IMG/VR virus record: IMGVR_UViG_3300039307_000150 | Span: 1-22,021 of that record | DNA length: 22,021 bases | Direction: 5' to 3' (one strand) | DNA from: a virus | Part shown: positions 3,382 through 22,021 of the stretch, piece by piece | Layout of the letters: every line of letters begins with the position of its first letter | How positions within the stretch are numbered: position 1 is the stretch's first letter | Notes under the pieces: model-generated | Seen by the model: the letters and a program-made list of their open reading frames with translations, nothing else | Told to the model about the DNA's origin: nothing | Databases searched by the model: none | Program-made: the position numbers and the translations under genes

Positions 3382-5466
3382 ATGAACAAATTCAGCAGGA
3401 TCATTCTCGGTCTGGTTTTCGCGCTGGCGGCTTCATCCGCTTGGGCGACGATTACCCGCGTTGAGACGGTCTGTGAAACCGCCCAATCTCCGGTGCAAGT
3501 TACGTTTGGCACGGCGACGACAACTGGCGAGCTAATTACTGTTGGGGTTGGGGTCGGAAGCAACGGGGCAGCGGATGGAGGGATCACAGACAATGCTTCT
3601 GGGGGCTCCTCGACATACCACCAGATCAGTTACTTGGCGTATGGCTCCAATTATGCCGACTTCTACTATGCCTACAATGTAGCCTCGGGTATAACCGTCG
3701 TTACCCTAGCTGTAGGGACCGGAAATCTCTACTATCAAAGCGGATTCTGTGCCACACATTACACGGGCCTTGCCACGAGCACTCCGCTGGATGTGACGGT
3801 GGCTTTTGGGAGTGAGCAAGGTTCGCCGTTTAGCAGAGCCTCTGGAACGCTTTCCCAAGCTAATGAAGTGGTTACCGGGGTGGTGGTAGACGTAGGCAAT
3901 AATTGCGCCAGCAGCTTTACTTCGACCGGAGCACTCACTCAGCGAGGCCAGTTCAACAATGCGTGCAGCGGCGCGAACGGCGCCTATGCGGATGATGTTG
4001 TATCAAGTACGTCTTCGGTAACTTACTCCGGGACAAATTCCAACGGCGGCAAAAACCGCGTCGCCATCGCCACATTTAAGGCTGGGGGCAACAGCTACAC
4101 AAGGAACGCAAGCGAATCGAACCCCGCCTCGGACGCGATTAGCCGTCTGGCGCGGTTTGCTCGCGCGGATAGCGAGAGCAACACAGCCTCCGACGCCATT
4201 GCGCGCAAAGTGAGCTTTGGGCGCGGCGACAGCGAGACTAACACGGCTTCGGATGCGATTGCGCGTTTGGGGGTTTTCAGCCGCGGCGAAAGCGAGAGCA
4301 ATACAGCGACGGACGCGATCCGGCGCTTGGCCGGCTTCGGCCGTGCCGACAGTGAGAGCAATACAGCCTCGGATGCGATCGCGCGCCAAGTGGCGTTTGG
4401 GCGCCGGGACAGCGAGAGTAACACGGCTTCCGACTCGATTGCGCGTTTGGGGGTCTTCAGCCGCGGCGAAAGCGAGAGCAATATAGCGATGGACGCGATC
4501 GCGCGCTTGGCCGGCCTTGGCCGTGCGGACAGCGAGAGCAACAGCGCCTCAGATGCGATCGCGCGTGCGGCCGTCTTGACCCGCACCGACAGCGAGAGCA
4601 ACACCGCCTCAGATGCCATCGCGCGGCTGGCCAACTTGAGCCGGGGCGAGAGCGAAAGCAACACAGCCTCCGATTCGCTGGCGCGGTTGGCCTCCTTCGG
4701 CCGTACCCCCAGCGAAACCAACATAGCCTCCGATACCGTCACAAGCCTTGAGACCGTGCCTGGCACGTACAGCGCAGCCCTGTACGAGACGAACATAAGC
4801 TCGGACGCGATTGCAGTCGCGCAGATCCTGAAGCGGAGCGAGAGCGAGAACAACACGGCCTCGGATGCCATTGCGCGTTCGGGGATTTTTGGCCGGGGTG
4901 ATAGTGAGACCAACACAGCGTCCGACGTGATTGCGCGCTCGGGAGTTTTCGGGCGGGGCGATAGCGAAACCAACACTGTCGCGGATTCGATTGCGCGCTC
5001 GCAGGGTCTGAGCCGGGGCGACGCCGAAACCCTCAGCGTTTCGGACAGTCTGGTGAGGCGGGCGGTTTCGATCCGGGGCGAGAGCGAGAACAACACGACG
5101 TCTGATTTACTGACGCGGGCAGCAAGTTTCGGGCGGGGCAACACTGAGGCGCTCAGCGCGAGCGATGATCTGAGGCGTGTCCTCGCTGCCTCGCGTCGCG
5201 ATACCGAGGCACTTTCCACTTCTGATAGTCTGAGCCGGGTTTTCGCTGCGCTGCGCGGCGATATGGAAACACTGGTCTTCAGCGATGCAATCGTTGGTTT
5301 GCGGAACTACAGTCTGACCGTCGTGCCGAGGCATGAGTTTGCCGTGCCAGGGCAGGCCAAAAGCGGAGCCGTGCCGGGGCAGGCCAAAAACGGAGCCGTG
5401 CCAGGCCAAGCGAAAACAGGCGCCGAAGCAGGGCGGGTGAAAAGCGGCACGGCGCCGGTGCATTGA
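3382..5466 (+). CDS. Secreted repeat protein with twenty 20-residue repeats (fibre/adhesin-like)
   Basis: The 694-residue product opens with a classic signal peptide (MNKFSRIILGLVFALAASSA, then WAT), a beta-rich domain to about residue 240 (TATTTGELITVGVGV; TDNASGGSSTYHQISY), then 20 repeats of consensus RGDSESNTASDAIARLxxFG (residues 241-644). The last 50 residues hold four nine-residue repeats of AVPGQAKSG type. The N-terminal domain resembles that of the gene at 19439-20200. Serine/aspartate-rich repeats of this kind occur in tail fibres and surface adhesins; a repetitive beta or solenoid rod is my inference. The repeats sit at constant 60-bp spacing except unit 12. The signal peptide argues for export in the lysogen (a moron-type surface protein) rather than simple virion assembly. 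There is no clear ribosome-binding site; the start follows a short ACACAATG repeat. Confidence 0.75.
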   Translation: MNKFSRIILGLVFALAASSAWATITRVETVCETAQSPVQVTFGTATTTGELITVGVGVGSNGAADGGITDNASGGSSTYHQISYLAYGSNYADFYYAYNVASGITVVTLAVGTGNLYYQSGFCATHYTGLATSTPLDVTVAFGSEQGSPFSRASGTLSQANEVVTGVVVDVGNNCASSFTSTGALTQRGQFNNACSGANGAYADDVVSSTSSVTYSGTNSNGGKNRVAIATFKAGGNSYTRNASESNPASDAISRLARFARADSESNTASDAIARKVSFGRGDSETNTASDAIARLGVFSRGESESNTATDAIRRLAGFGRADSESNTASDAIARQVAFGRRDSESNTASDSIARLGVFSRGESESNIAMDAIARLAGLGRADSESNSASDAIARAAVLTRTDSESNTASDAIARLANLSRGESESNTASDSLARLASFGRTPSETNIASDTVTSLETVPGTYSAALYETNISSDAIAVAQILKRSESENNTASDAIARSGIFGRGDSETNTASDVIARSGVFGRGDSETNTVADSIARSQGLSRGDAETLSVSDSLVRRAVSIRGESENNTTSDLLTRAASFGRGNTEALSASDDLRRVLAASRRDTEALSTSDSLSRVFAALRGDMETLVFSDAIVGLRNYSLTVVPRHEFAVPGQAKSGAVPGQAKNGAVPGQAKTGAEAGRVKSGTAPVH
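4102..5313 (+). repeat. 60-bp coding minisatellite, 20 units
   Basis: Twenty units of 60 bp run without interruption from 4102 to 5313, except that unit 12 (4762-4833) is 72 bp and degenerate. Units 1-10 and 13-15 are most alike; units 16-20 are diverged, which suggests expansion in the middle of the array. Alternating motif types (units 3-5 versus 6-8) hint at a three-unit higher-order duplication. Confidence 0.9.
5341..5448 (+). repeat. Four 27-bp coding repeats
   Basis: Units begin at 5341, 5368, 5395 and 5422, each starting GCCGTGCCAGG or close to it, and encode AVPGQAKSG, AVPGQAKNG, AVPGQAKTG and AEAGRVKSG. The fourth is diverged. Confidence 0.9.
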
Positions 5467-5471
5467 AAAGA

Positions 5472-5550
5472 AGCTATCAGCAGTCAGCTCTCAGCTTTCA
5501 GCAAGCGCAGAGCCGAAACCTGATGGCTGATAGCTGAGAGCTGAGAGCTG
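5472..5550. repeat. Heptamer hairpin, GCTGAGA family
   Basis: The left arm (5472-5502) is made of CTATCAG/CAGTCAG/CTCTCAG/CTTTCAG and the right arm (5526-5550) of CTGATAG/CTGAGAG/CTGAGAG. The arms are imperfect complements around a loop of about 23 bases. The array fills the spacer between two genes. Confidence 0.85.
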
Positions 5551-5556
5551 TTGGAC

Positions 5557-5856
5557 ATGACGATTTACAAAGCACCTTACGAACAATTCGCGGTTTCGCT
5601 CGATTTTGCCGCTGATATTGGCAAGGGCAACAGCATCGCCAGCATCACGGCGGTGACGGCTACAAGCGATCTGACCAGGCTGGATTCGACTGAAGAGGTC
5701 ATCGCTTCGAATCCAGCACCTGCGATTTCCGGTACAGGCGTGGTCTTCACGGTGACTGGCGGCGTGGCGGGAGAGAGACACACCATCGCGGCGCAGATCG
5801 TCTCCAGCATCGGCGAACAGTACCAGGGGGACGTTACGCTGGAAATCGTGGAGTAA
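5557..5856 (+). CDS. Small beta-rich phage structural protein
   Basis: This gene gives 99 residues from the ATG at 5557. The opening MTIYKAPYEQFAVSLDFAAD, then a GNSIASITAVTA strand and an ending GDVTLEIVE, fits small phage proteins of the type YKAP-x-E-x-x-x-x-x-DW found near capsid genes, usually predicted as one Ig-like or beta-sandwich domain. The exact role (decoration, fibre or head accessory) is not known to me. The region upstream is a GCTGAGA heptamer array with only a weak ribosome-binding site (GAG). A TTG six bases earlier is an alternative start. It lies directly before the protease gene and is probably translated from the same message. Confidence 0.65.
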   Translation: MTIYKAPYEQFAVSLDFAADIGKGNSIASITAVTATSDLTRLDSTEEVIASNPAPAISGTGVVFTVTGGVAGERHTIAAQIVSSIGEQYQGDVTLEIVE

Positions 5857-5874
5857 AGCTGAATTCTAAAGTTT

Positions 5875-5935
5875 GAAGGGTAAAGGATAAAGGCTGATAG
5901 CTGAGAGCTGAGAGCTGAGAGCTGAAAGCCGAGGG
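5875..5935 (+). repeat. Heptamer array, GGGTAAA plus GCTGAGA families
   Basis: A short GGGTAAA/GGATAAA stretch changes directly into GCTGATA and three GCTGAGA units. No inverted arm is visible. The array ends in GAGG, which may serve as the only ribosome-binding site for the protease. Confidence 0.75.
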
Positions 5936-5940
5936 CTTCG

Positions 5941-7638
5941 ATGAGCGCAACGAAGGAAGGTTATCCGCCAAGCGATTTTCTTGTGGTCGAGGACCCGGAG
6001 AAGGCAACCACGTTTCACCTTCAGGTGAAGCGGCATGGGAAGCCCGACCATGGCTTGATGGGCGCGGCTTTTGCTGCGCTTTACAAGAATTATCGCGGCA
6101 ATGCCTACGACGGCCCGGGCAAGGAAGAGGCCAAGCGGAGATTGCGCGCGCTCTATAAGTCGGAGGGCATGGAGTGGCCGGAAATAAATTCTGAAGTGGA
6201 AAGCATGAAGGATAACGTGAGAACGGAGAACTCAGACTTTATCCTTCACACTTCAGCCTTTCCACGTTTTGTCGCGCTGCTCGCCGATGTGCCGGGGACG
6301 GGCCTGATTCGGATTCCGATCGCTGTCACGGGGACCTGGGGCGGAGCGGAAAAGAAGTTCTCCATCGAGCTCGAGGATCTCGAACAAATCCGGGAGAACT
6401 TCGCCCAAAAGCCTACGGGCGAAATCAATGTGGATTACGAGCATGCCTCGGAAGTTCCCTTTGGCACGGGAGGACCCGTGCTGTCAGCCGGGCGTATCAC
6501 CAAACTGGACGAGCCCGAACGATTTTCAAACGGGAATAGGGAATTGGGAATGGGGAATAGGGAAACACCCAATTCCCAACTCCCTACTCCCAATTCCCGC
6601 TTTATCCTTTGGGGCTGGTACGAGCCCACGGAGCGCGCACGGCAGCTCATTGCCAATCGGGAGTACCGCTATATTTCGCCGGCCATCCGTTGGGGAGCGA
6701 AGGATAAAGTGACCGGCAAGACGGCAGGGACGGTACTGACCTCCGTAGCGCTGGTTAATAAGCCCTTTCTCGAGGAACTGCCCGAGATCCATCTTTGCGA
6801 AATGCAGGATTCAGCCCGCCGCGGCGGGAGGATTCAGGATTCAGGGGAAGCGCCAGACCGGGTTTTCGTGAGCCTGCAACAGTTGCATGTACCAGGTCCA
6901 GTAAATCAAGTTTCGGTTGCTTACCAGCAACCAGGAATGGATTCAGCGGGCAGGAGTAAGGGGTCAGGACCTGAATCCCAAATCCTGAATCCTGGATCCT
7001 TGTCTGCAAAGGAGACGACAATGGCTAAGAGTCTGAAGTTGAAGTGCCTCACCGACGCGCACCTCGAAGTACACCATTTGCCTGCCGAGCAGAGGGGCAA
7101 GATCGGGGTGTTCGACGGTGAGGAGTTGATCGGCATTGCTGACGGTCCCGAGGGTTGGGAACCCAAGGATGGCGACGGCGACGGCTTCACCGCCCTGTCG
7201 GAAAGCATCCACGATGGCAAGATCAACCTGGTGGAAGCCGGCAAGCTGGCGGATGCCGGGCGCGTAAGATTCTCCACCATCCTACAAGCGCAGGAAGCGG
7301 AGCGTAAAGTGAACGCGGCGGTGAAGGCGGGCAAGGTGCTGCCGAAAAACCGCGCCCACGCTCTGAAACTGGCGCTTTCAGATGCAGCGGCTTTCAGCGC
7401 GCTGGTCGAGCAAGCCCGGCCTGTGGTGGATCTACGAAGCCATGGGCATGCGGGAGGCGGCGAGGCCACCACGGCGCAGCAGGCGCTGATGGCGGAAGTG
7501 AATGCCTACGCCAAAGAGAACAAATGCTCGGTGAGCGTGGCGCTCTCGGAAGTCACCAAGCGCAAGCCGGACCTGTGGCGCGAGTATTCGGAAGAGATCG
7601 TGGCCGTCTCGCAGGCTGCGGAAGAAGAAGTCGAGTAG
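5941..7638 (+). CDS. Prohead protease, Mu gpI-like, with fused scaffold region
   Basis: The 565-residue product contains an N-terminal region found in phage head proteins (PPSDFLVVEDPEK to LYKSEGMEW, residues 10-77), then a Mu gpI-type protease domain (about 100-285) with NVDYEHAS around His168 and REYRYISPA (residues 240-248), and ALVNKP. Such proteases mature the prohead by cutting scaffold and other head proteins. Residues 198-219 are encoded by an inverted heptamer hairpin, evidently inserted in frame into a loop between LDEPERFS and FILWGW. Residues about 288-356 are also repeat-rich (GGATTCA family). From residue 361 the scaffold-like part begins, with its own start (see 7021-7638). Fusion by read-through of repeat DNA, or the natural gpI/gpZ nested arrangement of Mu, would both explain the layout. 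Confidence 0.85.
   Translation: MSATKEGYPPSDFLVVEDPEKATTFHLQVKRHGKPDHGLMGAAFAALYKNYRGNAYDGPGKEEAKRRLRALYKSEGMEWPEINSEVESMKDNVRTENSDFILHTSAFPRFVALLADVPGTGLIRIPIAVTGTWGGAEKKFSIELEDLEQIRENFAQKPTGEINVDYEHASEVPFGTGGPVLSAGRITKLDEPERFSNGNRELGMGNRETPNSQLPTPNSRFILWGWYEPTERARQLIANREYRYISPAIRWGAKDKVTGKTAGTVLTSVALVNKPFLEELPEIHLCEMQDSARRGGRIQDSGEAPDRVFVSLQQLHVPGPVNQVSVAYQQPGMDSAGRSKGSGPESQILNPGSLSAKETTMAKSLKLKCLTDAHLEVHHLPAEQRGKIGVFDGEELIGIADGPEGWEPKDGDGDGFTALSESIHDGKINLVEAGKLADAGRVRFSTILQAQEAERKVNAAVKAGKVLPKNRAHALKLALSDAAAFSALVEQARPVVDLRSHGHAGGGEATTAQQALMAEVNAYAKENKCSVSVALSEVTKRKPDLWREYSEEIVAVSQAAEEEVE
6532..6598. repeat. Inverted heptamer hairpin inside the protease gene
   Basis: Two 31-base arms (6532-6562 and 6568-6598) of GGGAATA/GGGAATT/GGGAATG units face each other around AAACA. 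About 25 of 31 positions pair. The reading frame stays open through the whole element. Confidence 0.92.
6804..7000. repeat. GGATTCA heptamer arms spanning the protease-scaffold linker
   Basis: The left arm (6804-6846) carries GGATTCA units split by a CCCGCCGCGGCGGG palindrome (6815-6828). The right arm (6970-7000) carries CCTGAATCC-type units. They are separated by about 120 bases that stay open in the protease frame. Confidence 0.75.
7021..7638 (+). CDS. Probable scaffold protein, nested in frame in the protease gene (gpZ-like)
   Basis: An ATG at 7021 with AAGGAG eight bases upstream is in frame with the protease and would give 205 residues (MAKSLKLKCLTDAHLEVHH). In Mu the scaffold is likewise made from an internal start in the protease gene. 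The body holds EAERKVNAAVKAGKVLPKNR and a helical ALKLALSDAAAFSALVE segment, matching the C-terminal region of Mu gpI proteins, and the end is acidic (QAAEEEVE). Residues 50-61 (DGDGDGFTALSE) match the 12-residue EF-hand calcium loop at positions 1, 3, 5, 6 and 12, which I do not expect in a scaffold. Expression as a separate product is inferred from the strong ribosome-binding site. Confidence 0.7.
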   Translation: MAKSLKLKCLTDAHLEVHHLPAEQRGKIGVFDGEELIGIADGPEGWEPKDGDGDGFTALSESIHDGKINLVEAGKLADAGRVRFSTILQAQEAERKVNAAVKAGKVLPKNRAHALKLALSDAAAFSALVEQARPVVDLRSHGHAGGGEATTAQQALMAEVNAYAKENKCSVSVALSEVTKRKPDLWREYSEEIVAVSQAAEEEVE

Positions 7639-7710
7639 TCGAGGAGTCGAGGGTCGAAAAGTTGAAAGAAAAGGCTTTTAACCCTCGACCTTTGACTCTC
7701 GACCTTCGAC
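7630..7710. repeat. Heptamer/octamer hairpin, GTCGAGG family
   Basis: The left arm (7630-7667) has GTCGAGTA/GTCGAGGA/GTCGAGGG units in an 8-base register that changes to 7. The right arm (7681-7710) has CTCGACC/TTTGACT/CTCGACC/TTCGACT. The protease stop codon lies inside the left arm. Confidence 0.85.
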
Positions 7711-7816
7711 TGTTATGGGAAGCTCGCACCCTTGGCCAGTTTCTAGATTCTGATTTCGAGTTTCTGATTTGATCACAGGGTCCGCGCCCCTCAAGCGCGG
7801 AAAAGGAGAAGAAACT

Positions 7817-8206
7817 ATGGCAGATGGAACTGTAAGCACACCGTCGGCGCCGCCCGAGGCTTGCCTCGGAGGGGCTTGGCCGGCGAATCTAAAGCTGTTG
7901 TTCGATACGGCACTGGCAACGCAGACGAAGGTCCTTACCGACGCACAGAATGCCGCCAACCTTGCTCTTCTCAACGCGGTCGGGGTAGCTCATGCTGCCG
8001 CACAGCAAGGACTCCGACACGCGGAGTTGGCCGCCGCCGATCAATGGGAAGAACAGGCCAGCGTTTCTGCAATCAGCGCTGACGATCTTGCCAAAATCAC
8101 GCAAAGCGTGACCGCTGCAATCAGCGCTGTGCTGGCGAATATGGCGACCGGCAGGCCTCCGGTGAATCAATCCGGTACCACGGGGACTTCGGTAGCGACG
8201 GCCTAG
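7817..8206 (+). CDS. Small helical phage protein, unknown function
   Basis: The gene gives 129 residues from the ATG at 7817, with AAGGAG eight bases upstream; an in-frame extension to 7769 includes the hairpin CCGCG...CGCGG and is unlikely to be translated. The product is Ala/Gln-rich and largely helical (LTDAQNAANLALLNAVGVAH; AAAQQGLRHAELAAADQW), with a Ser/Thr/Gly-rich end. It stands between the scaffold and the decoration protein, a position held in other phages by accessory head proteins. It has a passing compositional likeness to RebB-type proteins, but not enough for a call. The product is not recognised. Confidence 0.65.
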   Translation: MADGTVSTPSAPPEACLGGAWPANLKLLFDTALATQTKVLTDAQNAANLALLNAVGVAHAAAQQGLRHAELAAADQWEEQASVSAISADDLAKITQSVTAAISAVLANMATGRPPVNQSGTTGTSVATA

Positions 8207-8234
8207 TACAGTCTCGGAAGCAGCAGAAGAAGAC

Positions 8235-8300
8235 GTCGAGGAGTCGAGGGGTCGAGAAGTTAGACTCTCGACCTTTGACTCTCGACCCTTGACTGTTTTT
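8235..8300. repeat. GTCGAGG-family hairpin followed by T5
   Basis: The left arm (8235-8258) has three GTCGAG units at 8-base spacing. The right arm (8263-8294) has CTCTCGACC/TTTGACT units. A TTTTT run at 8296-8300 follows. The form is that of an intrinsic terminator, but the same array type elsewhere lacks the T run and genes continue closely downstream, so weak attenuation is the most I would propose. Confidence 0.65.
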
Positions 8301-8317
8301 CCAGGAGGAGAAATCGA

Positions 8318-8794
8318 ATGAGCGACATTACTGCGATCGACCAAAGTTACCATCTCAATTACAACATCGAGATCGGGAAATTCACTTGCCTGGCGCCGGA
8401 CACTTCGGTGTCCGCCGACGGGTGCAACGTGCCGAGTGGGGCCAACGGGCAATTCCTCGGGGTAGCCCAGGAATCGATTCTGCCTGACGCCGCGGCTGAC
8501 TATTCGGGCGGGCTGTACAACCTGGTGAGCGGCACTGCCTGGCCCACGGGCGTCATTCCGGCGAGCGGGCTGGGGCGCAACATCCGCACGCGCCTGTTTG
8601 GGATCTCGCGGGTGGTGGCGTCGGGCGCTATCACACGCGGCGCCTACGTGAACATCGCCAACGCCCAGGGGCAGATCAAGGCGGTGAGCGAGTCTGGCAC
8701 GATGATTAACGTCGTCGGAATCGCCATCGACGCAGCCTCGAATGCCGGCGACGTGATTCGCGTGCTGGTGATGCCGTACTCGTACAAGGGGTAG
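8318..8794 (+). CDS. Capsid decoration protein, DUF2190-like
   Basis: The 158-residue product has the DUF2190 pattern: an early DTSVSADGCNVPSG segment, GQFLGVAQESI, a central Gly-rich beta part (ISRVVASGAITRGAYVNIAN), and a closing VGIAIDAASNAGDVIRVLVM. Members of this family are small trimeric or accessory capsid proteins encoded next to the major capsid gene and thought to decorate or stabilise the head. Length is slightly above the usual 110-140 residues. A strong GGAGGAG stands nine bases before the ATG. The major capsid gene follows after a 280-base spacer, consistent with high expression of both. Confidence 0.8.
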   Translation: MSDITAIDQSYHLNYNIEIGKFTCLAPDTSVSADGCNVPSGANGQFLGVAQESILPDAAADYSGGLYNLVSGTAWPTGVIPASGLGRNIRTRLFGISRVVASGAITRGAYVNIANAQGQIKAVSESGTMINVVGIAIDAASNAGDVIRVLVMPYSYKG

Positions 8795-8817
8795 CGGCCG
8801 CGACTGCTGTCAGTCAT

Positions 8818-8893
8818 CGGCTGTCAGCTCGCAGCTATCAGCTCTCAGCGAACCGTTTTCTCCCTGAAAGCTGACGGCTGACCGCTGATGGCT
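8818..8893. repeat. Heptamer hairpin, GCTGATA family
   Basis: The left arm (8818-8850: CGGCTGT, CAGCTCG, CAGCTAT, CAGCTCTCAG) and right arm (8864-8893: CTGAAAG, CTGACGG, CTGACCG, CTGATGG) are imperfect complements. Confidence 0.8.
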
Positions 8894-8909
8894 TGTTTTC
8901 GGGCGACCG

Positions 8910-8955
8910 CTAGCGCGCTCGTCCGCCGATCAACACGCCCGCCGTGTTGCGCTAG
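8910..8955. other. Nested stem-loop upstream of the major capsid gene
   Basis: An inner perfect 7-bp stem CAACACG/CGTGTTG (8931-8937 with 8943-8949, loop CCCGC) is enclosed by CTAGCG/CGCTAG (8910-8915 with 8950-8955), leaving a 15-base bulge on the left. This is unlike the heptamer arrays on both sides and lies about 120 bases before the capsid start. No known regulatory RNA was recognised. Confidence 0.55.
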
Positions 8956-8976
8956 ATAACGCTGGGCCGGGAAGAA

Positions 8977-9053
8977 CAGGATCCAGGATTCAGGATTCGG
9001 GATTCAGGGAAGCACGCGCGAGGACATCCCCTGAATCCTGAATCCTGAATCCT
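8977..9053. repeat. Heptamer hairpin, GGATTCA family
   Basis: The left arm (8977-9009) is GGATCCA, GGATTCA, GGATTCG, GGATTCA; the right arm (9029-9053) is three CCTGAAT units plus CCT. Pairing is nearly perfect around a loop of about 20 bases. The capsid ribosome-binding site follows directly. Confidence 0.9.
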
Positions 9054-9074
9054 CGTAACAAAAAGGAGAAACAG

Positions 9075-10013
9075 ATGCCCAGCCTTAACCAACTACACGT
9101 TGACGAGGCACTCACCCAGATCAGCATTGCCTACCGCAACCAGGCGTTTGTAGCGGAGGAAGTGCTGCCGGTAGTGCCTGTGATGAAGAAGAACGATGTG
9201 TTCTTCAAATTCTCGAAACAGCACTTCCGTTCTTACAAAGACGCCTACGCGGCCGGGCAGCGCGCCCAGCAGATCGAAGTCGATCTGGACGCGCGCGGTT
9301 TCTACATGGCCGATGGCCACGCGCTGGAGGACTCGATCACCGACGACGAGCGCGACCAGGCCGATCCCGGCGCTCAGCTCGAAGTGGAGAAGACCGAGAA
9401 GCTCACCAATATCATCGCGCTGAACGAGGAGATCAACCTCTTTACGAACATCATCACCACTGCGAATATCACCCAGAACAGCAACCTCGCCAGCACTCCA
9501 ACTTCGCAGTGGTCCGATTACATCAACTCCGACCCGGTCTCCGAAGTCCTGAAACAACGTCGCACCTTACAGCAGCAGATCGGCGATTTCCCTAACCACC
9601 TGCTGGTCTCGCAGCCGGTGCTGGATGCACTGGCCAACCATCCCCGCATCCTGGACCGCGTGAAATACACGGCCAACGGCGCCCGCAACCAGCTTGACGA
9701 GCAGGACCTGGCGCGGGTGTTCAAGGTCGAGAAGGTACTGGTCGCCGCGGCACTCTATCAGACCTCGAATGAAGGTGAGGCGGACAGCCTGGGGTACATC
9801 ATGGGCAAGAACGCTATGCTGTTCTACCGCCCGCCACGACCTGGCCTCCGCGTGCCCAGCTTCGGCTACACATTCTTCTGGGCAAAGCGCTCGGGAGTGC
9901 TGAGATGGCGCGAGCTCTCGCTCGAGTCGGACTTCATCCGCGTGAAGAAGTACTACGCGCAGCAGGTGATTGCAGCCAACGCAGCGTACCTGTGGGTGAA
10001 CGCGACGGCGTAG
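9075..10013 (+). CDS. Major capsid protein
   Basis: The 312-residue product shows the features of HK97-fold major capsid proteins of Mu-like and related phages: an N-terminus MPSLNQLHVDEALTQISIAY followed by FVAEEVLPVVPV, an acidic central helix region (DSITDDERDQADPGAQLEVE), the domain containing NHLLVSQPVLDALANHP, and a closing FFWAKRSGVLRWRELSLESD segment typical of this group. About 415 copies would build an average T=7 head. AAAAAGGAG six bases before the ATG is the cleanest ribosome-binding site in the window, fitting its need for abundance. Position after protease, scaffold and decoration genes agrees. No cleavable delta domain is evident, consistent with the separate scaffold. Confidence 0.85.
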   Translation: MPSLNQLHVDEALTQISIAYRNQAFVAEEVLPVVPVMKKNDVFFKFSKQHFRSYKDAYAAGQRAQQIEVDLDARGFYMADGHALEDSITDDERDQADPGAQLEVEKTEKLTNIIALNEEINLFTNIITTANITQNSNLASTPTSQWSDYINSDPVSEVLKQRRTLQQQIGDFPNHLLVSQPVLDALANHPRILDRVKYTANGARNQLDEQDLARVFKVEKVLVAAALYQTSNEGEADSLGYIMGKNAMLFYRPPRPGLRVPSFGYTFFWAKRSGVLRWRELSLESDFIRVKKYYAQQVIAANAAYLWVNATA

Positions 10014-13524: not shown

Positions 13525-14316
13525 ATGGCCACCAAGACCTCCAAGTCCACACCGGCAGCGCCGAGCATGACGGGCGACCTTAACCGGGAACTCATCGCCC
13601 CGCTCCAGGAGTTCGACAGCATCGCCCGGCTGGTATCGAAGGATATGGTCAATGAGCTGACGCCCAGCATCCAGACCTGGGCGCGCGAGACGACCCAGTC
13701 GATCAGTGCGGTTCAAACCGCCCTACAAACCTTTCAGGTGGTAGCCGGCGCTGCCTTCATGGAGACAGGCGACGCCATGACGGCGGCCGGGATCGCGGCA
13801 GCGATCTACGGCGAAAACGTCGGCCAATCCATGGAGAAGGCCGCAAAAGCCGCCCTCGCGTCAATTGCGGAACAGGCGGGGGTAAACGCACTGAACGCCC
13901 TGGCACAAGGCCTGTGGTTTCTGGCGCAAGCCATTTTTTTCGGAGACCCGGATGCTGCGATCGCTGCGGCGACCGATTTTGAAGCTGCGGCGGAATGGGG
14001 CGCGATTGCTGGTGTGGCGGGCGCGGCGGCAGCAGCGATTCCTGGCGGCGGCGCCAAAGGTACAAGCGCTGGTCGCGGAGCGGGCGCGGGATACGGCAAG
14101 GGAGGTTACGGCGGCGGAGCTCCACAACTGGGCGGTTACGGTCTCGCACCTGGCGCAGCCAGCGCGCTGAATCCACCCAGCGGGCAGCTCACGGTGATGG
14201 TGGTGGGCGAGGCGCAGGCGGGGCAGTGGCTTGCGACCACGCTCAACACTGCCGTACAGCGCGGCGTGCCGCTGAATGCCACGACGGTGCAGAAGTCGCC
14301 GTACGCCGCCGGCTAG
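13525..14316 (+). CDS. Tape measure protein, unusually short
   Basis: The 263-residue product has a helical N-terminal part (LNRELIAPLQEFDSIARLVS; TQSISAVQTALQTF), an Ala-rich hydrophobic centre (MEKAAKAALASIAEQAGVNA to LAQAIFF, then EWGAIAGVAGAAAAAIPGGG, about residues 112-186), a Gly-rich hinge (187-214) and a C-terminal beta end (GQLTVMVVGEAQAGQWLATT). This matches the C-terminal third of many tape measure proteins, where the hydrophobic segments may enter the host membrane during DNA delivery. The tape length sets tail length; about 0.15 nm per residue would predict a tail near 40 nm. The product follows the chaperone pair as expected. AGGAG stands eleven bases upstream of the ATG. It could instead be the only remnant of a longer gene; no upstream fragment is visible. 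Confidence 0.65.
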   Translation: MATKTSKSTPAAPSMTGDLNRELIAPLQEFDSIARLVSKDMVNELTPSIQTWARETTQSISAVQTALQTFQVVAGAAFMETGDAMTAAGIAAAIYGENVGQSMEKAAKAALASIAEQAGVNALNALAQGLWFLAQAIFFGDPDAAIAAATDFEAAAEWGAIAGVAGAAAAAIPGGGAKGTSAGRGAGAGYGKGGYGGGAPQLGGYGLAPGAASALNPPSGQLTVMVVGEAQAGQWLATTLNTAVQRGVPLNATTVQKSPYAAG

Positions 14317-14319
14317 GCG

Positions 14320-14393
14320 GGAAGTGTGAAGTGTGAAGGATAAAGGATAAAGTGAGAGCAGTTCAGTCTTTACACTTTAGCCTTTACACTTTC
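14320..14393. repeat. Heptamer hairpin, GTGTGAA/GGATAAA family
   Basis: The left arm (14321-14353) has GAAGTGT, GAAGTGT, GAAGGAT, AAAGGAT, AAAGT. The right arm (14367-14393) has CTTTACA, CTTTAGC, CTTTACA, CTTTC. Confidence 0.85.
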
Positions 14394-14405
14394 GAGCCAA
14401 ACACG

Positions 14406-14789
14406 ATGAGTAACCCGAAGATAGTTTACGATCCAGGAACTGGCCCAACGACTCTGACGTTTCTGCGCCCGCCACGCAAGGTGCCAGCTTATGATTACAA
14501 CGCAGTCCGGCACGACAACATTTCCAGCGCCGGTGTGCGCGAGGCTGTGCTCGAGCGCATCGAGACTTTCCTCGAGCTCGAGATGGACTGGGTGGCGATC
14601 GGCGCGGACGTGCAGGCATGGAATCAGTTCATGCAATTTGCGCTCGGCGGTGGGCAGTTCGGCTACTATCCGGACGCCTCGCAGCCGGCCTTCACCAACT
14701 GCTGGCTGGAGGACTCCAACTGGACGGCGGCCTACAAGAGCGTCGGGCAGTACACGTTTAAGCTCAAGTTTCGACAAGTGGTGAGCTGA
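14406..14789 (+). CDS. Small tail protein downstream of the tape measure
   Basis: The gene gives 127 residues from the ATG at 14406; an in-frame GTG at 14352 lies in the heptamer array. The product has IVYDPGTGPTTLTFLRPPRK, an aspartate/aromatic centre (LELEMDWVAIGADVQAWNQF) and a C-terminal strand pair ending YTFKLKFRQVVS. Small proteins with the pattern LTF.RPP and a final FKLKFR strand are common after the tape measure in siphoviruses and are likely baseplate or distal tail parts. I cannot name the family with confidence. The start lacks a clear ribosome-binding site. Confidence 0.6.
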   Translation: MSNPKIVYDPGTGPTTLTFLRPPRKVPAYDYNAVRHDNISSAGVREAVLERIETFLELEMDWVAIGADVQAWNQFMQFALGGGQFGYYPDASQPAFTNCWLEDSNWTAAYKSVGQYTFKLKFRQVVS

Positions 14790-14912: not shown

Positions 14913-15095
14913 GTGATTCAGGGTAATCAAACCTGGCAACTGGCGCTGGCGCAGCCGCAGAAGCAGGCGTACTATACGGTCGAGATCCCGGACTTTGCCA
15001 TCGCCATCGCGAGCTTTACCGCCTCAGCTCAGGCAGCGACAATGCTCAGCGGCTACGGCGTCATACTCTACGGCGTTGGTCTGTACGGGACGTAA
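14913..15095 (+). CDS. Short hypothetical tail-region protein
   Basis: A 60-residue product starts at the GTG at 14913 (MIQGNQTWQLALAQPQKQAY) and ends in a hydrophobic Gly/Tyr-rich stretch (MLSGYGVILYGVGLYGT). The strand-like middle, YYTVEIPDFAIAIASFTASA, supports a real small beta protein rather than chance, and the spacers on both sides are the same repeat class that separates other genes. The GYGVxLYGxGLYG tail resembles repeated GxxLYG ends in some phage tail proteins. There is no ribosome-binding site. The function is unknown and the start is uncertain. Confidence 0.45.
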   Translation: MIQGNQTWQLALAQPQKQAYYTVEIPDFAIAIASFTASAQAATMLSGYGVILYGVGLYGT

Positions 15096-15167: not shown

Positions 15168-18100
15168 ATGCCCACTGTCTCGCAGTACTATCCGGGAGAT
15201 TTCTACGGCGACGCCGCCCAGTCGCTGGCCTGGCTCTATTCGCGCCAACTGAAGCTCGTGAATGGCTGGGAAGCGAACGCTCGCGAGACGGGCTTCCCGG
15301 TGACCTCGCTGCCCGGGGCGCCATGCGTACCGACCACACCGCCCTTCATTGAGTGTGGCATCGTTTCGCAGAATGACCTCAGCCAGATTGCTCAGACTGC
15401 TTGCGAGAGCATCTGCATGGTGCCACCCGGCATATTGATGCTGGGAATGGATGACCAGCTTGGCCCGGACGGCTGCCCCATAGACCTCTCGCCGATCGGC
15501 CTTCCTTTCGGGTACCTTTTTCCTCCTGTCCTGCCAGTTACCAGCGCGCAGATCAGCGCTTACTACCAGCAGATGTACAACGCCAATCCCAGTGGCTCCG
15601 TAATCAACGGGGTGACTTATCCCGTGCTGGCGGGCCTGACGATCTACGGTTATCTCTTCAATCCCCAACAGAGCATGCTCAATTACCGCATCGATCTTTT
15701 CAGCAAGACCGACCTCTTCTATTACCAAGGCAGCGCGGTGGGGACAGGGGCTTACACCAGCGGGCCGATGAAAGGCCAGTATCCTTCGCCGTCACAGTTC
15801 CAGTCGCTGCTCGTTCAGCAAGGCTTGTACGGCTACTGGGGCGCGCAGGTGCCCTTCCCAGGTATAGTGATAGCGGTGCTCTACCCGACGAGCGTGGCGC
15901 AGCCAGCCGTGGGCTCATCGTTCAGCGTTTTGCCAGCAGGTTGGATTTGCCACTCGAATACCGGCGTGGGCTACAAACTGACGGATTATTTTGCGCGCAT
16001 TTACGCCAAGACGGACGTCGAATATTTGCAGGAAGACAACATCCCCATCATCGTGCAGGATGATTTCCATGCGCGCTGCGGCTCGAGCCTGGTCCTGCAT
16101 ACAGGCACACCCACCGTGCACGTGATGTACGTGGACCCGGTGAAGGGTCCCACGCAGGTTTGCACATCGCTGGCGGCTGATTGGGCTTTTCCATCACTGC
16201 CACTTTCTTTTATCGTGCCCACTTCCGACCCGCTTTATTTCCCGGATCCCACTCTGACAGAGGGGGCTGCGCTGCAAAACCGCAGCTACATCTACGACTG
16301 CGCGCTGGCGATTATCGCTTTTGCGGGGTCGGGCAACTTCGTCGCCGCCGCCCGGATCATCAAGCAGCTCGACGCGATTCTCGACAGTCCCGGCTACCTT
16401 GCTTCCATTATTTTCGAAAACGGGGAAGATGGGGAATCGGCGAGCCGATGGACAAAGAGCAACTCTGCTGACTCCGTAACCGATGTCAATGACCCCACAG
16501 AGCCACCTTATGGCACCGGTCTGGTGGTCGATTTCCACGCCATTGCCGCAAACGATACCTTCACCTATTCTGGCAGCGGCTTCCCGGACACCACCGATGC
16601 GCAGGTCCAATTTGAGCACAAGGAAGTGGAGGCGGTGGGGTTCAATTTCGCCATCGGGGTCACCACGGCAGGCGGCAAAGTCACAAGCGTACAGGTAACC
16701 TCGGCAGCAGTCGCGCCGGCATCGCTGGTCCCGCTAAGCGGGATCATCACCATCGCGGTCGGACCGGGCAACGGCCTTTATCGTTTCCACCTCATCAACC
16801 TCGCTCAGCTCATCTCGAGGCTCGCGGGCGACACGCTCAGCTCCATCACCGGATTCGTGGTCACTCTTATCCCGCAGAGCGGGACCGGAGACCTTTACTT
16901 TGACAACTTCTCGGCGGGGAACACTCAGCCCGCGAATTCACTTGCCTTCAGCTACGATACTTACTATGGCCTCGTGGACCAAGCTTACATCCGCGCCGGG
17001 GCCATGGCCTGGGTGTGTTACGCCTACTGCATCTACATGCAGATCACCCAGGACTTCAGCCCTTCGCTCTACCTCCAGCGCATGATTAACTTCCTGCTCA
17101 CCTTGCAATCCACCGCCTCCGACCTCACGAACGGGCTGTTTTACCTCGGCTGGGGAACGTACGGAAATCCGGGCTATCAATTCGTGCCCGGTCTCATGCA
17201 GCGGGTTTCGACCGAACACCAGATCGACCTGTATTTTGCTTTCATGCGCGCCGCCGCAACTCTGCCCACTGCGGCTGTTCAGCTTCAAAAAACCAATTTA
17301 ATCACCTCCACGCAGGCTGCCTCGCTGAACGCCACTGCCGCGCAATTGCAGACCGTGGCGGATGTTGTTGCCACGAAGGTCGTTGCCAATCTCTATATCG
17401 CCCCGAGCGGCGGCGTGCCCGGCCACTTTGCCCAGGGCGCAGGCTCCGAAGCGACACCGCCTGCCGGACTTGATACCAGCCAGGCTTGTGATGCCGCTGG
17501 CACCTGGGCGGCGCTTTTCTGCCATGCCATCGGACGCGATGACCTCGCGCTGCAATGCCTGGAGTTCGTAGACCAGAATTTCCTGCTTCAGAATCAGCAG
17601 ATTTGGCTATCTGCCGCGACGAACTCCTACAACGAAACTTATCAGCAGCTCACTCCCTTCAACGGCTTCAAGTTTTTCAATGACTCTGCCGGCGGCTATT
17701 CAGGCTCTCCTCTCAGCATCTCGCAGGAACAGAGCTGGAGCATGCTCCTGGCGCTGCTCGATCTCTACAATATCTCAGGGGTTGCGGATTACTTTGCTAG
17801 CGTGTATGGCAGCCTCGATGCCTATCTCACCACGCTCATCACCAGCCAGCGCACCGTGCGCTCCACTACAGGTGATGGCTCGTTGCTTTCGTATTCCTTG
17901 GCCTCGCGCGATTTGCCTTACGAATTTGAAGTGTGGCCAGCCTTCACGGCAACAGCGTGGTTTTATCTGGTCTCGACAAATCCCGGCCTGCTGCTTTCTC
18001 TCGGCAATACTCCGACTATTATCCCCTACCTGCAAATTCCGCAGGGAGCCAGCCAGTCCGTGAACGAGCTCGAGGGGCAATCCTCACTGGGCAGCATGAC

Positions 18101-19439
18101 CATCACCTGCATCGATCCGAATGGCACGCTCAAGGGCCTCGCGGCTCAGGATGTGCTGATTGGCAGGATGGTGCAGCTCAAGCAGGGCTTTCCGGGGCTT
18201 GCCTTGGGCGATTTCACCATTCTGCAAACCATGCAGATCACTCAGGTGGGCCAGGACACGGACGGCCGCATCACTATTCAGTGCGCGGATGTGCAGCGTT
18301 TTATCCAGGGAATGCAGATTTGGCTGCGTGGCGGCCCGCTCTGGTGGACACCAGGCGGTCCCATGGCGCAACAACCCGTCGGCGCTTCGTGGCTTGAAAA
18401 CGGCTATCAGGTGAGCGACCAAAACCCGCGCTACGTGGCAGGCAACCCCATCGACATCATCCTGGCGGTGCTCCAGAACGAGCTGGGCGTGGGCCAGGAC
18501 CCGGCCCTCCTGACCTCGAATTACGTGATGCAAAGCCTCGCACCAATCTACCAGTCGCAACAGGACTACGAACCCTTGCCGCCACCAGAAGGTTGGGCTA
18601 TCTATGAGCCCGGCCAGGACTCGACGCTGATCAATCCCAATCCCTACATCGACATTCCCGGCTTCCTGGCCTTGCGGGACGGCGAATTTTCCGGCGTCTG
18701 GTTTGATTTTGTGATTACGCGGCCCATCGATGGCAAGCAGTTCCTCGAGGAGCAAATCTTGAAGCCATTGGGGCTTTATACGATCGTGCGCGCCAATGGC
18801 CAGCTCTCACTCAAGACCATGAAGCCGCCCGTCGAGCAGACGCCCGTGTTCGCCTTCAGCTCCAAGAACATCATGGGAATCCCCCAGACCCTGCGGCAGA
18901 ACATCATCAACCTGGTTACTCTCCAACTGGATGTGCAGCAAGGCGGCATCACCACGGCGGCGCGCAGCTATGGTCACCAGGTGAGCTATCAGCAACAAAC
19001 TTCGCTCAAAACTTATCGGCAGGTGTACGAGCAGCAAATCCAGTCCACCGGGCTGCGCGTGGCACGCGGGGGCATGATGCTCTCCCGTTTGCTTGCCGAC
19101 CGTATCTTTCGCCGCCACGCCTTCGAGCCGCCCGCCTACAAGTTCACTGCCCAGCTCGCCACCTTGCAGGCAGAGCTGGGCGACTACGTGTGGCTGACCC
19201 ACTCAAAAGTCCTCGATCTCACAGTCGGCAAGCTGGGGCTGAGCAATGTGGTCTGCGAGGTGATCGACAAGCAGCCCAATTACAGTCAGGGAACAGTCGA
19301 TTTCACCCTGCTCGATACGCGGTTCATCAACCTTTCTGTGCCGTATCAGATTGCAGCGGCCGCGGATAATGTCCCCACTTGGTACAACGCGACGCCTCAG
19401 CAACAGGCGCAATACATGTTCATTTCTCCGGGGTCATAA
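15168..19439 (+). CDS. Giant tail hub protein fused to a six-hairpin glycosidase-like region
   Basis: The 1423-residue product is by far the largest here. Residues 1-350 are an unrecognised beta-rich region (VGYKLTDYFARIYAKTDVEY). Residues about 355-945 look like an (alpha/alpha)6 six-hairpin glycosidase: YIYDCALAIIAFAGSGNF (374-391), AYIRAGAMAWVCYAYCIYMQ, STEHQIDLYFAFMRAAA (681-697), TWAALFCHAIGRDDLALQCL and SQEQSWSMLLALLDLY (852-867), with Glu683 and Glu854 as candidate acids. A beta-sandwich-like module (about 412-585, GTGDLYFDNFSAG at its end) interrupts it. Residues about 960-1400 resemble a siphovirus hub (SLGSMTITCIDPNGTLKG; GDFTILQTMQITQVGQDTDG; VDFTLLDTRF). The likely role is to bind and cut a surface glycan while opening the tail tip. 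The next gene overlaps its stop by one base. The glycosidase call is a fold-level inference from pattern. Confidence 0.7.
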   Translation: MPTVSQYYPGDFYGDAAQSLAWLYSRQLKLVNGWEANARETGFPVTSLPGAPCVPTTPPFIECGIVSQNDLSQIAQTACESICMVPPGILMLGMDDQLGPDGCPIDLSPIGLPFGYLFPPVLPVTSAQISAYYQQMYNANPSGSVINGVTYPVLAGLTIYGYLFNPQQSMLNYRIDLFSKTDLFYYQGSAVGTGAYTSGPMKGQYPSPSQFQSLLVQQGLYGYWGAQVPFPGIVIAVLYPTSVAQPAVGSSFSVLPAGWICHSNTGVGYKLTDYFARIYAKTDVEYLQEDNIPIIVQDDFHARCGSSLVLHTGTPTVHVMYVDPVKGPTQVCTSLAADWAFPSLPLSFIVPTSDPLYFPDPTLTEGAALQNRSYIYDCALAIIAFAGSGNFVAAARIIKQLDAILDSPGYLASIIFENGEDGESASRWTKSNSADSVTDVNDPTEPPYGTGLVVDFHAIAANDTFTYSGSGFPDTTDAQVQFEHKEVEAVGFNFAIGVTTAGGKVTSVQVTSAAVAPASLVPLSGIITIAVGPGNGLYRFHLINLAQLISRLAGDTLSSITGFVVTLIPQSGTGDLYFDNFSAGNTQPANSLAFSYDTYYGLVDQAYIRAGAMAWVCYAYCIYMQITQDFSPSLYLQRMINFLLTLQSTASDLTNGLFYLGWGTYGNPGYQFVPGLMQRVSTEHQIDLYFAFMRAAATLPTAAVQLQKTNLITSTQAASLNATAAQLQTVADVVATKVVANLYIAPSGGVPGHFAQGAGSEATPPAGLDTSQACDAAGTWAALFCHAIGRDDLALQCLEFVDQNFLLQNQQIWLSAATNSYNETYQQLTPFNGFKFFNDSAGGYSGSPLSISQEQSWSMLLALLDLYNISGVADYFASVYGSLDAYLTTLITSQRTVRSTTGDGSLLSYSLASRDLPYEFEVWPAFTATAWFYLVSTNPGLLLSLGNTPTIIPYLQIPQGASQSVNELEGQSSLGSMTITCIDPNGTLKGLAAQDVLIGRMVQLKQGFPGLALGDFTILQTMQITQVGQDTDGRITIQCADVQRFIQGMQIWLRGGPLWWTPGGPMAQQPVGASWLENGYQVSDQNPRYVAGNPIDIILAVLQNELGVGQDPALLTSNYVMQSLAPIYQSQQDYEPLPPPEGWAIYEPGQDSTLINPNPYIDIPGFLALRDGEFSGVWFDFVITRPIDGKQFLEEQILKPLGLYTIVRANGQLSLKTMKPPVEQTPVFAFSSKNIMGIPQTLRQNIINLVTLQLDVQQGGITTAARSYGHQVSYQQQTSLKTYRQVYEQQIQSTGLRVARGGMMLSRLLADRIFRRHAFEPPAYKFTAQLATLQAELGDYVWLTHSKVLDLTVGKLGLSNVVCEVIDKQPNYSQGTVDFTLLDTRFINLSVPYQIAAAADNVPTWYNATPQQQAQYMFISPGS

Positions 19440-20851: not shown

Positions 20852-21493
20852 ATGGCTGTAACTAGAACAGTTCTTCCCCGCAAGGGTCTAATCCAGTCGC
20901 AACACGGCCTGACCAGCTACGAGGTTGACCAGGACCAAAACTGGGCGCTGTTGGATGCCAATGTCGCCTTCATGAGTGATCTGCCACTTACGCCATTCCT
21001 GGAACTCGGATTCGATGGATTAATTTCCGGCTTCGTCCTCTCCCCTTCCAGCACTTTGGTCCCTGGGATCACGGCCGGTATCCTTTACGCGCAGGGCGCG
21101 GGTTACACGGCTGCGACTGCACCTACGCTCCCGCCGGCGCCGGCCAGCCAAACAAGTTACCTGTTCTACAACTCCGTGAGCGGCTTCTATTACCAATCGG
21201 GCGCCGTGGGCGCGACGGCCGGCGACGCCCTGGTCGGTGTGGTCACCACCAACACCTCAGCGGTTATCGCAGTCCAGCAGGCGACGCCCATCTTTGGCGG
21301 GGTTAGCGTGGTTTCCAGCGCGCCGGGCAATTGCACAGTTGCTCACCTGCTCGGCCGTGTCCCCGTCTGTGCAGTCATTCAAATGACCAGCGGCGGCGCC
21401 ATCTGGTTCCAGACGCCGGTTAGCTACGACGGCACGAATCTCTATCTAGTGGCTTCCGACGCGGGAGTCACGGGAAGGGTGATCGTTTGGTGA
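20852..21493 (+). CDS. Tail fibre-like protein
   Basis: The 213-residue product has GGAG seven bases before the ATG. An N-terminal segment (GLTSYEVDQDQNWALLDANV) is like those that attach fibres to a baseplate; the middle is Pro/Ala/Gly-rich (ATAPTLPPAPASQTSYLFYN) and the C-terminal half is a beta-rich Gly/Thr/Val domain (CTVAHLLGRVPVCAVIQMTS, SYDGTNLYLVASDAGVTGRV) resembling C-terminal domains of short fibres: the H-x-L-G-x-x-P motif with following strands occurs in many phage receptor-end proteins. Its stop overlaps the start of the next gene (GTGA), so the two are translationally coupled. The receptor target is unknown. Confidence 0.6.
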   Translation: MAVTRTVLPRKGLIQSQHGLTSYEVDQDQNWALLDANVAFMSDLPLTPFLELGFDGLISGFVLSPSSTLVPGITAGILYAQGAGYTAATAPTLPPAPASQTSYLFYNSVSGFYYQSGAVGATAGDALVGVVTTNTSAVIAVQQATPIFGGVSVVSSAPGNCTVAHLLGRVPVCAVIQMTSGGAIWFQTPVSYDGTNLYLVASDAGVTGRVIVW

Positions 21494-21903
21494 AAAAAAC
21501 AGGATTCGGGATTCAGGTCCGATTTCGGGTCCGATCAAGATCGGACCATCGGACTCCAGTAATCGGAGATTCAGGATTCAGGGTCTCCAATTTCAAATTT
21601 CAAATTGCGCGCCTTCGTAGATCGTTCCTCGAGCTGGCCCCGGCGCTGCCACTCTGCTGCCTATTGCTCTCCGGCTTGCTCAGAGCTCAGATCCCCGCTG
21701 GCACTCCCACCTACAACGTCAACGCCAAGTGGGTCACTGATCGCGGCAGCCAGGTTTTCAACGTCAAGGCCTACGGCGCGGTAGGGAATGGGACCACCAA
21801 CGATACAACGGCGATCCTCGCGGCGAGGACAGCAGCGGTGGCCGCTCACGGAATTCTTTTCTTCGCTCCAGGCAGTTACCCGATGAGTTCCCAACTAGTG
21901 TAG
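21490..21903 (+). pseudogene. Pectate-lyase-like tailspike, truncated by IS630
   Basis: The frame starts at the GTG at 21490, overlapping the previous stop. Residues 1-45 are encoded by repeat DNA (GGATTCA heptamers and a palindrome at 21516-21555), then comes a signal-peptide-like stretch (ALPLCCLLLSGLLRAQ), and then SQVFNVKAYGAVGNGTTNDT with TAILAARTAAVAAHGILFFA and PGSYPMSS. That is the start of a pectate lyase 3 type right-handed beta-helix, as found in phage tailspikes that degrade polysaccharide. The reading frame ends two codons into the insertion sequence (GTG TAG), so several hundred residues are missing. The protein is almost certainly non-functional in this allele. The signal peptide is odd for a tailspike. 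Confidence 0.7.
21502..21583. repeat. GGATTCA heptamers around a GTCCGATC palindrome
   Basis: GGATTCGGGATTCAGG (21502-21517) and GATTCAGGATTCAGGG (21568-21583) are in direct, not inverted, orientation. Between them GGTCCGATC (21528-21536) and GATCGGACC (21539-21547) pair perfectly, enclosed by GGTCCGAT/ATCGGACT (21516-21523, 21548-21555). Confidence 0.8.
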
Positions 21904-22021
21904 TGTCCCATAATTACCTTGACTTATACAGATAAGGCCGATATGCTTGAGGACATGAGCCGAGTCGCAGCTCCGATTATTCTGTCGGCCGAGGAACGGA
22001 CCACCTTGGCGGCGTGGTCCA
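21895..22021 (+). mobile_element. Right IS630-family element, 5' end only (runs off the window)
   Basis: This is the inverted counterpart of bases 1-127. The junction is the TA in AACTAGTG (about 21896-21899), immediately inside the tailspike gene. Terminal sequence GTGTAGTGTCCCATAATTA is identical in both copies. The outer half is missing. Confidence 0.8.
21943..22021 (+). CDS. IS630-family transposase, N-terminal fragment
   Basis: The translation begins MLEDMSRVAAP and continues IILSAEERTTLAAWS, the N-terminal start of an IS630-family DDE transposase. An alternative start at 21955 (MSRVAAP) is more usual for the family. Just 26 codons are present before the window ends, at exactly the same codon as in the left-hand copy. 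The gene reads outward, away from the phage genes, so it cannot drive them. Confidence 0.75.
   Translation, partial: MLEDMSRVAAPIILSAEERTTLAAWS

Follow-up and report, generated by a model that had tools for sequence, protein, structure and literature searches.

The window analyzed here, a stretch of 22,021 nucleotides (positions 1 to 22,021 of the IMG/VR virus record IMGVR_UViG_3300039307_000150), harbors a gene in which an (alpha/alpha)6 toroid is fused to a tail-hub domain. This toroid-hub fusion gene, whose synteny is shared with its relatives, is an intact open reading frame (ORF) extending exactly from 15168 to 19439 on the plus strand, with no internal stop, and encodes 1,423 amino acids. 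Three parts can be distinguished in the protein, all given here with plus-strand coordinates: an N-terminal part (residues 1-340; 15168..16187) with a helix and a beta-rich region, modeled at low confidence; a toroid region (residues 341-943); and a tail-hub C-terminus (residues 945-1423; 18000..19436), assigned from structure matches and the model. The toroid region is itself split. Its first part (residues 341-408; 16188..16391) comprises helices 375-388 and 391-406 and an RxxxYD motif with D377, and its second part, drawn from the structure model and the alignment, covers residues 590-943 (16935..17996). Inserted between them is a beta-sandwich resembling a carbohydrate-binding module (CBM) (residues 409-589; 16392..16934). 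An earlier sequence-only reading had placed about 600 residues of toroid upstream of the hub domain in one protein. The arrangement is borne out by the AlphaFold2 model and the fold search and the extent holds for the region as a whole, but about 180 of these residues are the inserted beta-sandwich, leaving a toroid proper of about 420 residues.

Fold of the toroid and of the hub domain

A first AlphaFold2-type model, obtained with 13 sequences for residues 1-948, had weak loops (predicted local distance difference test, pLDDT, of 57) and already matched (alpha/alpha)6 enzymes at Z 20-23. With a 55-row alignment, residues 341-1423 were modeled at a mean pLDDT of 86, the toroid blocks being mostly above 90, and (alpha/alpha)6 enzymes were matched at Z 23.6-29.2 over approximately 295-347 residues in VIA-align 2, which quotes a helical-bundle background of about Z 14. 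Among the PDB families listed by VIA, from which the structural ranking is drawn, the top match is the methylmannose polysaccharide hydrolase MmpH (7qsj; Z 29.2, 2.7 A, 295 residues). It is followed by the 5z3 glycosidase entries (Z 27.4 for 5z3d), which correspond to isomaltose glucohydrolase (PMC12446779), and by dextran dextrinase (Z 26.8), a bacterial glucoamylase (1lf6, Z 26.6) and 1ug9 (Z 24.1). The barrel of GH15 and clan GH-L is thus found in the toroid through 1lf6, 5z3d and 1ug9, and AGE epimerases (about Z 26), GH100 and GH94 also appear among the structural matches. Altogether, the barrel is shared at Z 24-29 with GH15 glucoamylase, glucodextranase and isomaltose glucohydrolase and with MmpH, an alpha-endomannosidase, at only about 11-13% identity; the 180-residue insertion and the location in a phage tail hub set the window toroid apart from these enzymes.

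At the level of sequence profiles, PF00723 (GH15) matches none of the 55 members (0/55), and TIGR01577, the GH15-type oligosaccharide amylase model of NCBIfam, matches 16 of the 55, the best at 3.2e-9 and far under its cut-off. The phage toroid profile also matches one cellular protein, itself a GH15 member. When compared by hhalign with GH15, GH127 and GH88, which together made up the profile comparison, the toroids gave GH15 as the best of the three, with a probability of 93 for the toroids encoded by separate genes and of 75 for all toroids, versus 0.3-5.6 for GH127 and GH88 as control families of the same fold. This comparison favors a relationship with GH15 over one with GH127 or GH88.

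Regarding the hub domain, Foldseek matches include NF5 Tal (tail-associated lysin), Listeria gp18, phiCD508, T5 pb3, Mu, phi812 and VgrG, with gp27-like hub and VgrG structures found at E-values of 1e-8 to 1e-5. We infer that these matches belong to residues 945-1423, since no other domain fits them. No match to PF06605 (Prophage_tail) or any other Pfam or PHROG hub model was found for this C-terminus, and a weak match to the TipJ-related NF040662 was seen in two family members. The gene also occupies the siphophage hub position, following the tube, tape-measure-like and Dit-like genes, an order that is conserved in viral contigs and in metagenome-assembled genomes (MAGs).

The insertion is confidently predicted as a beta-sandwich and was the best-predicted region of the first model, whose viral matches include a CenC-like carbohydrate-binding protein. 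By helix count, it would lie on a loop on the same face of the toroid as the conserved residues.

Conserved residues and relatives

Conservation was counted over 55 homologues, down to about 27% identity. The two motifs singled out in the sequence-only reading, STEHQIDLYF and SQEQSW, indeed carry E683 and E854, and both glutamates proved conserved. Glu683 (17214..17216), in STEHQID at the N-terminus of an alpha-6-like helix, is kept in 54/55, and Glu854 (17727..17729), in a motif that reads WxEGTWG elsewhere and precedes an alpha-10-like helix, in 53/53. Also kept are H684 (54/55), R609 (54/54), D377 (48/50), Asp775 (17490..17492; 54/55) and, six residues upstream of the latter, Asp769 (55/55). 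Finally, Glu919 of LPYEFEVW (17922..17924; 49/53) precedes the last inner helix, where the GH15 base sits. The conserved residues, acidic ones included, precede inner helices as they do in GH15, so that both the toroid and the acidic residues that had been anticipated from the sequence are present in the prediction.

In GH15, the acid is located in the alpha5-alpha6 loop and the base in the alpha11-alpha12 loop (PMC12446779). By helix count, E683 is the natural candidate for the acid and E919 the candidate for the base, with E854 in the alpha9-alpha10 position. E683 and E854 had been named in the sequence-only reading as residues to test for conservation; this conservation stands, but E854 may not be the base, and they are not settled as a simple catalytic pair since E919 occupies the GH15 base place. 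In MmpH the base is conserved and the acid has moved (PMC9883506), so the acid/base pair named here is a candidate one. Relative to close relatives, the toroid shows an omega of 0.06-0.09, which denotes strong purifying selection, at least on a par with that on the other parts of the protein; versus L002 and L004, the toroid is the slowest-evolving part.

All 29 fused proteins (29/29), from viral contigs and Acidobacteriota MAGs, are set apart from the other rows by a branch supported at 100/99. The fused proteins share the beta-sandwich, which is absent from the separate toroids aligned, and since they form a single clade, one fusion and one insertion fit the data. No hub without a toroid was found inside the fused clade; hub relatives at a greater distance (L081-L087) have no toroid, and their C-terminal parts are of other kinds. 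In a draw of 396 Acidobacteriota genomes, the hub was found only in the genome used as center, which indicates that the prophage is rare.

Beyond the phages of Acidobacteriota, the toroid occurs as a tail protein of its own. Its gene in Bacillota prophages follows those for the tape measure (phrog_58) and the hub (PF06605), and at least one locus has an endolysin next. These separate toroids (Coprococcus phage NatCom_10489 XTK82734.1; phrog_13714/7032/37493) belong to the same family, have the same conserved residues and adjoin the hub gene in the tail module, but are encoded by their own gene after the hub, unfused and without the inserted beta-sandwich. Their N-terminal parts are probably related to that of the fused proteins, as judged by hhalign (probability 78, E 1.8e-5). 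Toroid homologues also exist in sequenced phages, namely gp30 of Thermus phage phiYS40, in which no hub domain is seen and whose function is unannotated, and minor tail proteins of Microbacterium phages (RubyRalph).

Among side observations on the toroids, separate toroids can be joined to other modules, such as a C-terminal EndoU nuclease match (L055) or RHS/DUF6531 repeats (L045). In L037 and L043/L044, about 50-60 additional residues are inserted in the toroid ahead of the D769/D775 region. At positions 7870-9180 of L005, which lies on the same contig as L012, an insertion that carries a transposase breaks the toroid-hub gene past about residue 630; it looks IS4-like by eye (no Pfam name) and has inverted ends CATAAGCGTTAACCTAA and a target duplication of about 11 bp (GACTACAGCCC).

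Function, alternatives and known systems

Taken together, the gene likely encodes a tail-hub protein carrying, N-terminal to the hub, a catalytically competent-looking GH15-like (clan GH-L) toroid with a CBM-like insertion. The reading that fits best is a GH15-like glycoside hydrolase carried by the virion and placed on the tail axis, whose activity and substrate we infer. In its favor, PHROG "tail fiber" families match the toroid. Hubs of the gp27 type are trimers. A trimer is therefore expected, and the tail tip would then be flanked by three toroids. The inserted beta-sandwich may hold a glycan of the host surface, and D377, R609, D769 and D775 may bind the sugar, which the toroid would cut by acid/base catalysis with E683 as candidate acid and E919 or E854 as candidate base. 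As the tip arrives at the envelope, a path would thereby be opened through the exopolysaccharide or capsule of the acidobacterial host.

Several observations weigh against such an enzyme. In the profile alignments the GH15 acid and base are not superposed on the conserved Glu, so the catalytic pair is unmatched residue by residue and, on this comparison, the toroid is called GH15-like and not a GH15 member. No model in the Pfam, PHROG or PDB-sequence searches assigns a catalytic function to the toroid. Position 919 is Lys in two copies from Salinicoccus. In one fused relative (L076, locus 5142-9533), E683, H684, D775 and E919 have been lost (R, D, E and Q are found there) and the fusion is kept; its toroid is a candidate natural pseudoenzyme. 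Such retention, together with the CBM-like domain within the toroid, is what would be expected of a non-catalytic carbohydrate-binding receptor module in which the enzyme fold is kept for adhesion only. This alternative nevertheless appears unlikely, for the putative active site is kept in nearly all other relatives, the slow evolution of the toroid versus L002 and L004 speaks for constraint, and within the fused clade the branch of L076 is the longest, in line with a loss of constraint. Foldseek and VIA rank a number of enzyme families near one another, and the reaction type is therefore not fixed by the fold. With AGE, GH94, GH100 and GH88 structures within a few Z units, another sugar reaction in the same fold could be envisaged, whether epimerization (AGE), phosphorolysis (GH94) or lyase/unsaturated-uronyl hydrolysis (GH88), but is quite improbable given that the profiles prefer GH15 to GH88 and GH127, the two other families compared.

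Hub-linked lysins are common and a PhoD-like phosphatase adjoins the toroid in two separate relatives (joined to the separate toroids of L065 and L066), which could point to peptidoglycan or teichoic acid as the target. However, the Pfam and PHROG searches revealed no peptidoglycan hydrolase signature, and the Acidobacteriota envelope is of the Gram-negative type, in which teichoic acid is not expected, making an attack on either polymer highly improbable. An artefact of assembly or annotation could be suspected, given that the window is a contig from a metagenome and that the gene is disrupted in some MAGs, by a stretch of N (L036) or by frameshifts (L038, L042). However, many contigs and MAGs independent of one another show the same uninterrupted toroid-hub frame, so the chance that the fusion is spurious is negligible.

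Beyond the glycoside hydrolase reading of this one protein, we lean, somewhat more cautiously, toward a broader picture: a distinct GH15-like family of tailed phages, fused once to the hub in Acidobacteriota phages together with a sugar-binding insertion, whereby glycan degradation and genome delivery would be combined in one central protein and not assigned to peripheral tailspikes. Enzyme-bearing hubs are already known, as are rare toroid depolymerases. In the part of the DepoScope study considered, the alpha/alpha-toroid accounts for 11 of 984 fold hits, in phage virion proteins with depolymerase-type annotations, and a hub fusion is not described there (PMC11326577). The megatron proteins of RcGTA and R4C have an adhesin-like domain, a peripheral domain, with a carbohydrate-binding insertion in R4C, and a central hub domain in this order (PMC7296036, PMC10276861). 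Compared by published domain order alone, the N-terminal helix and adhesin-like part, the peripheral domain and the hub-like central domain are alike, the fiber-binding C-terminus is different, and the megatrons may serve, by analogy, as a structural precedent for the toroid-hub arrangement. The megatron peripheral domain is TIM-barrel-like and not a toroid. In the literature searched, which left most subscription journals outside, no description was found of a toroid N-terminally fused to a hub with a sugar-binding-like insertion, and this combination and position appear to be undescribed there.

A toroid glycosidase fold is here built into the tail axis and not hung on a spike, and the fusion is fixed throughout a phage lineage of the Acidobacteriota, soil bacteria that are abundant and poorly cultured. 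With the conserved residues, the separate-gene relatives of Bacillota and the degenerate L076, the function, the substrate and the effect of the fusion are directly testable. If the glycosidase reading holds, such phages would probably use one and the same part to trim sugars of the host surface and to initiate DNA delivery, and new polysaccharide-degrading enzymes would become available from them.

Neighboring genes and the tailspike

Upstream in the window, a Mu-like portal, a protease and a major head protein are recognized by Pfam/PHROG, followed by genes named by position: tube, chaperone, a short tape-measure-like gene (13525..14316, +; 263 amino acids) and a Dit-like gene (14352..14789, +). 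The last two are conserved neighbors in relatives, and this succession puts the fusion ORF in the hub slot. Related viral contigs share this gene order, as do contigs from Acidobacteriota MAGs, the latter being best interpreted as prophages or phages; these MAGs make an acidobacterium the probable host of the window phage, a soil virus.

The toroid had been suggested in the sequence-only reading to compensate for a broken tailspike. This does not agree with L002 and L004, which carry both the fusion and pectate-lyase-like spike ORFs of about 900 amino acids (weak PF12708 match); being fixed across a clade that includes these relatives with long spikes, the fusion predates any spike loss in the window. 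The pectate-lyase-like spike ORF of the window itself (region 21487-22021; PF12708, E 1.4e-7) stops at 21903, and its state is hard to judge because the stop lies 118 bases before the contig end. The frame after this stop looks by eye like the start of a transposase; Pfam found nothing in its 39 amino acids.

A programmed frameshift was considered for L036, L038 and L042 and rejected, since L036 contains a stretch of N, whereas L038 and L042 have one shift each, and not at the same site. The tape-measure-slot gene is also short in the relatives L011, L012 and L013 (about 250-290 amino acids), and a length of 263 amino acids would imply a very short tail. Upstream of the fusion gene, a small ORF (14913-15095) ends in GYGVILYGVGLYGT, and GYGVGLYG repeats similar to this end form an extra toroid insertion near residue 650 in L003 and L005. 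Elsewhere in the window (3382-5466), an ORF of 694 amino acids without family match consists mostly of SESNTASDAIAR-type repeats, with a long antisense ORF opposite.

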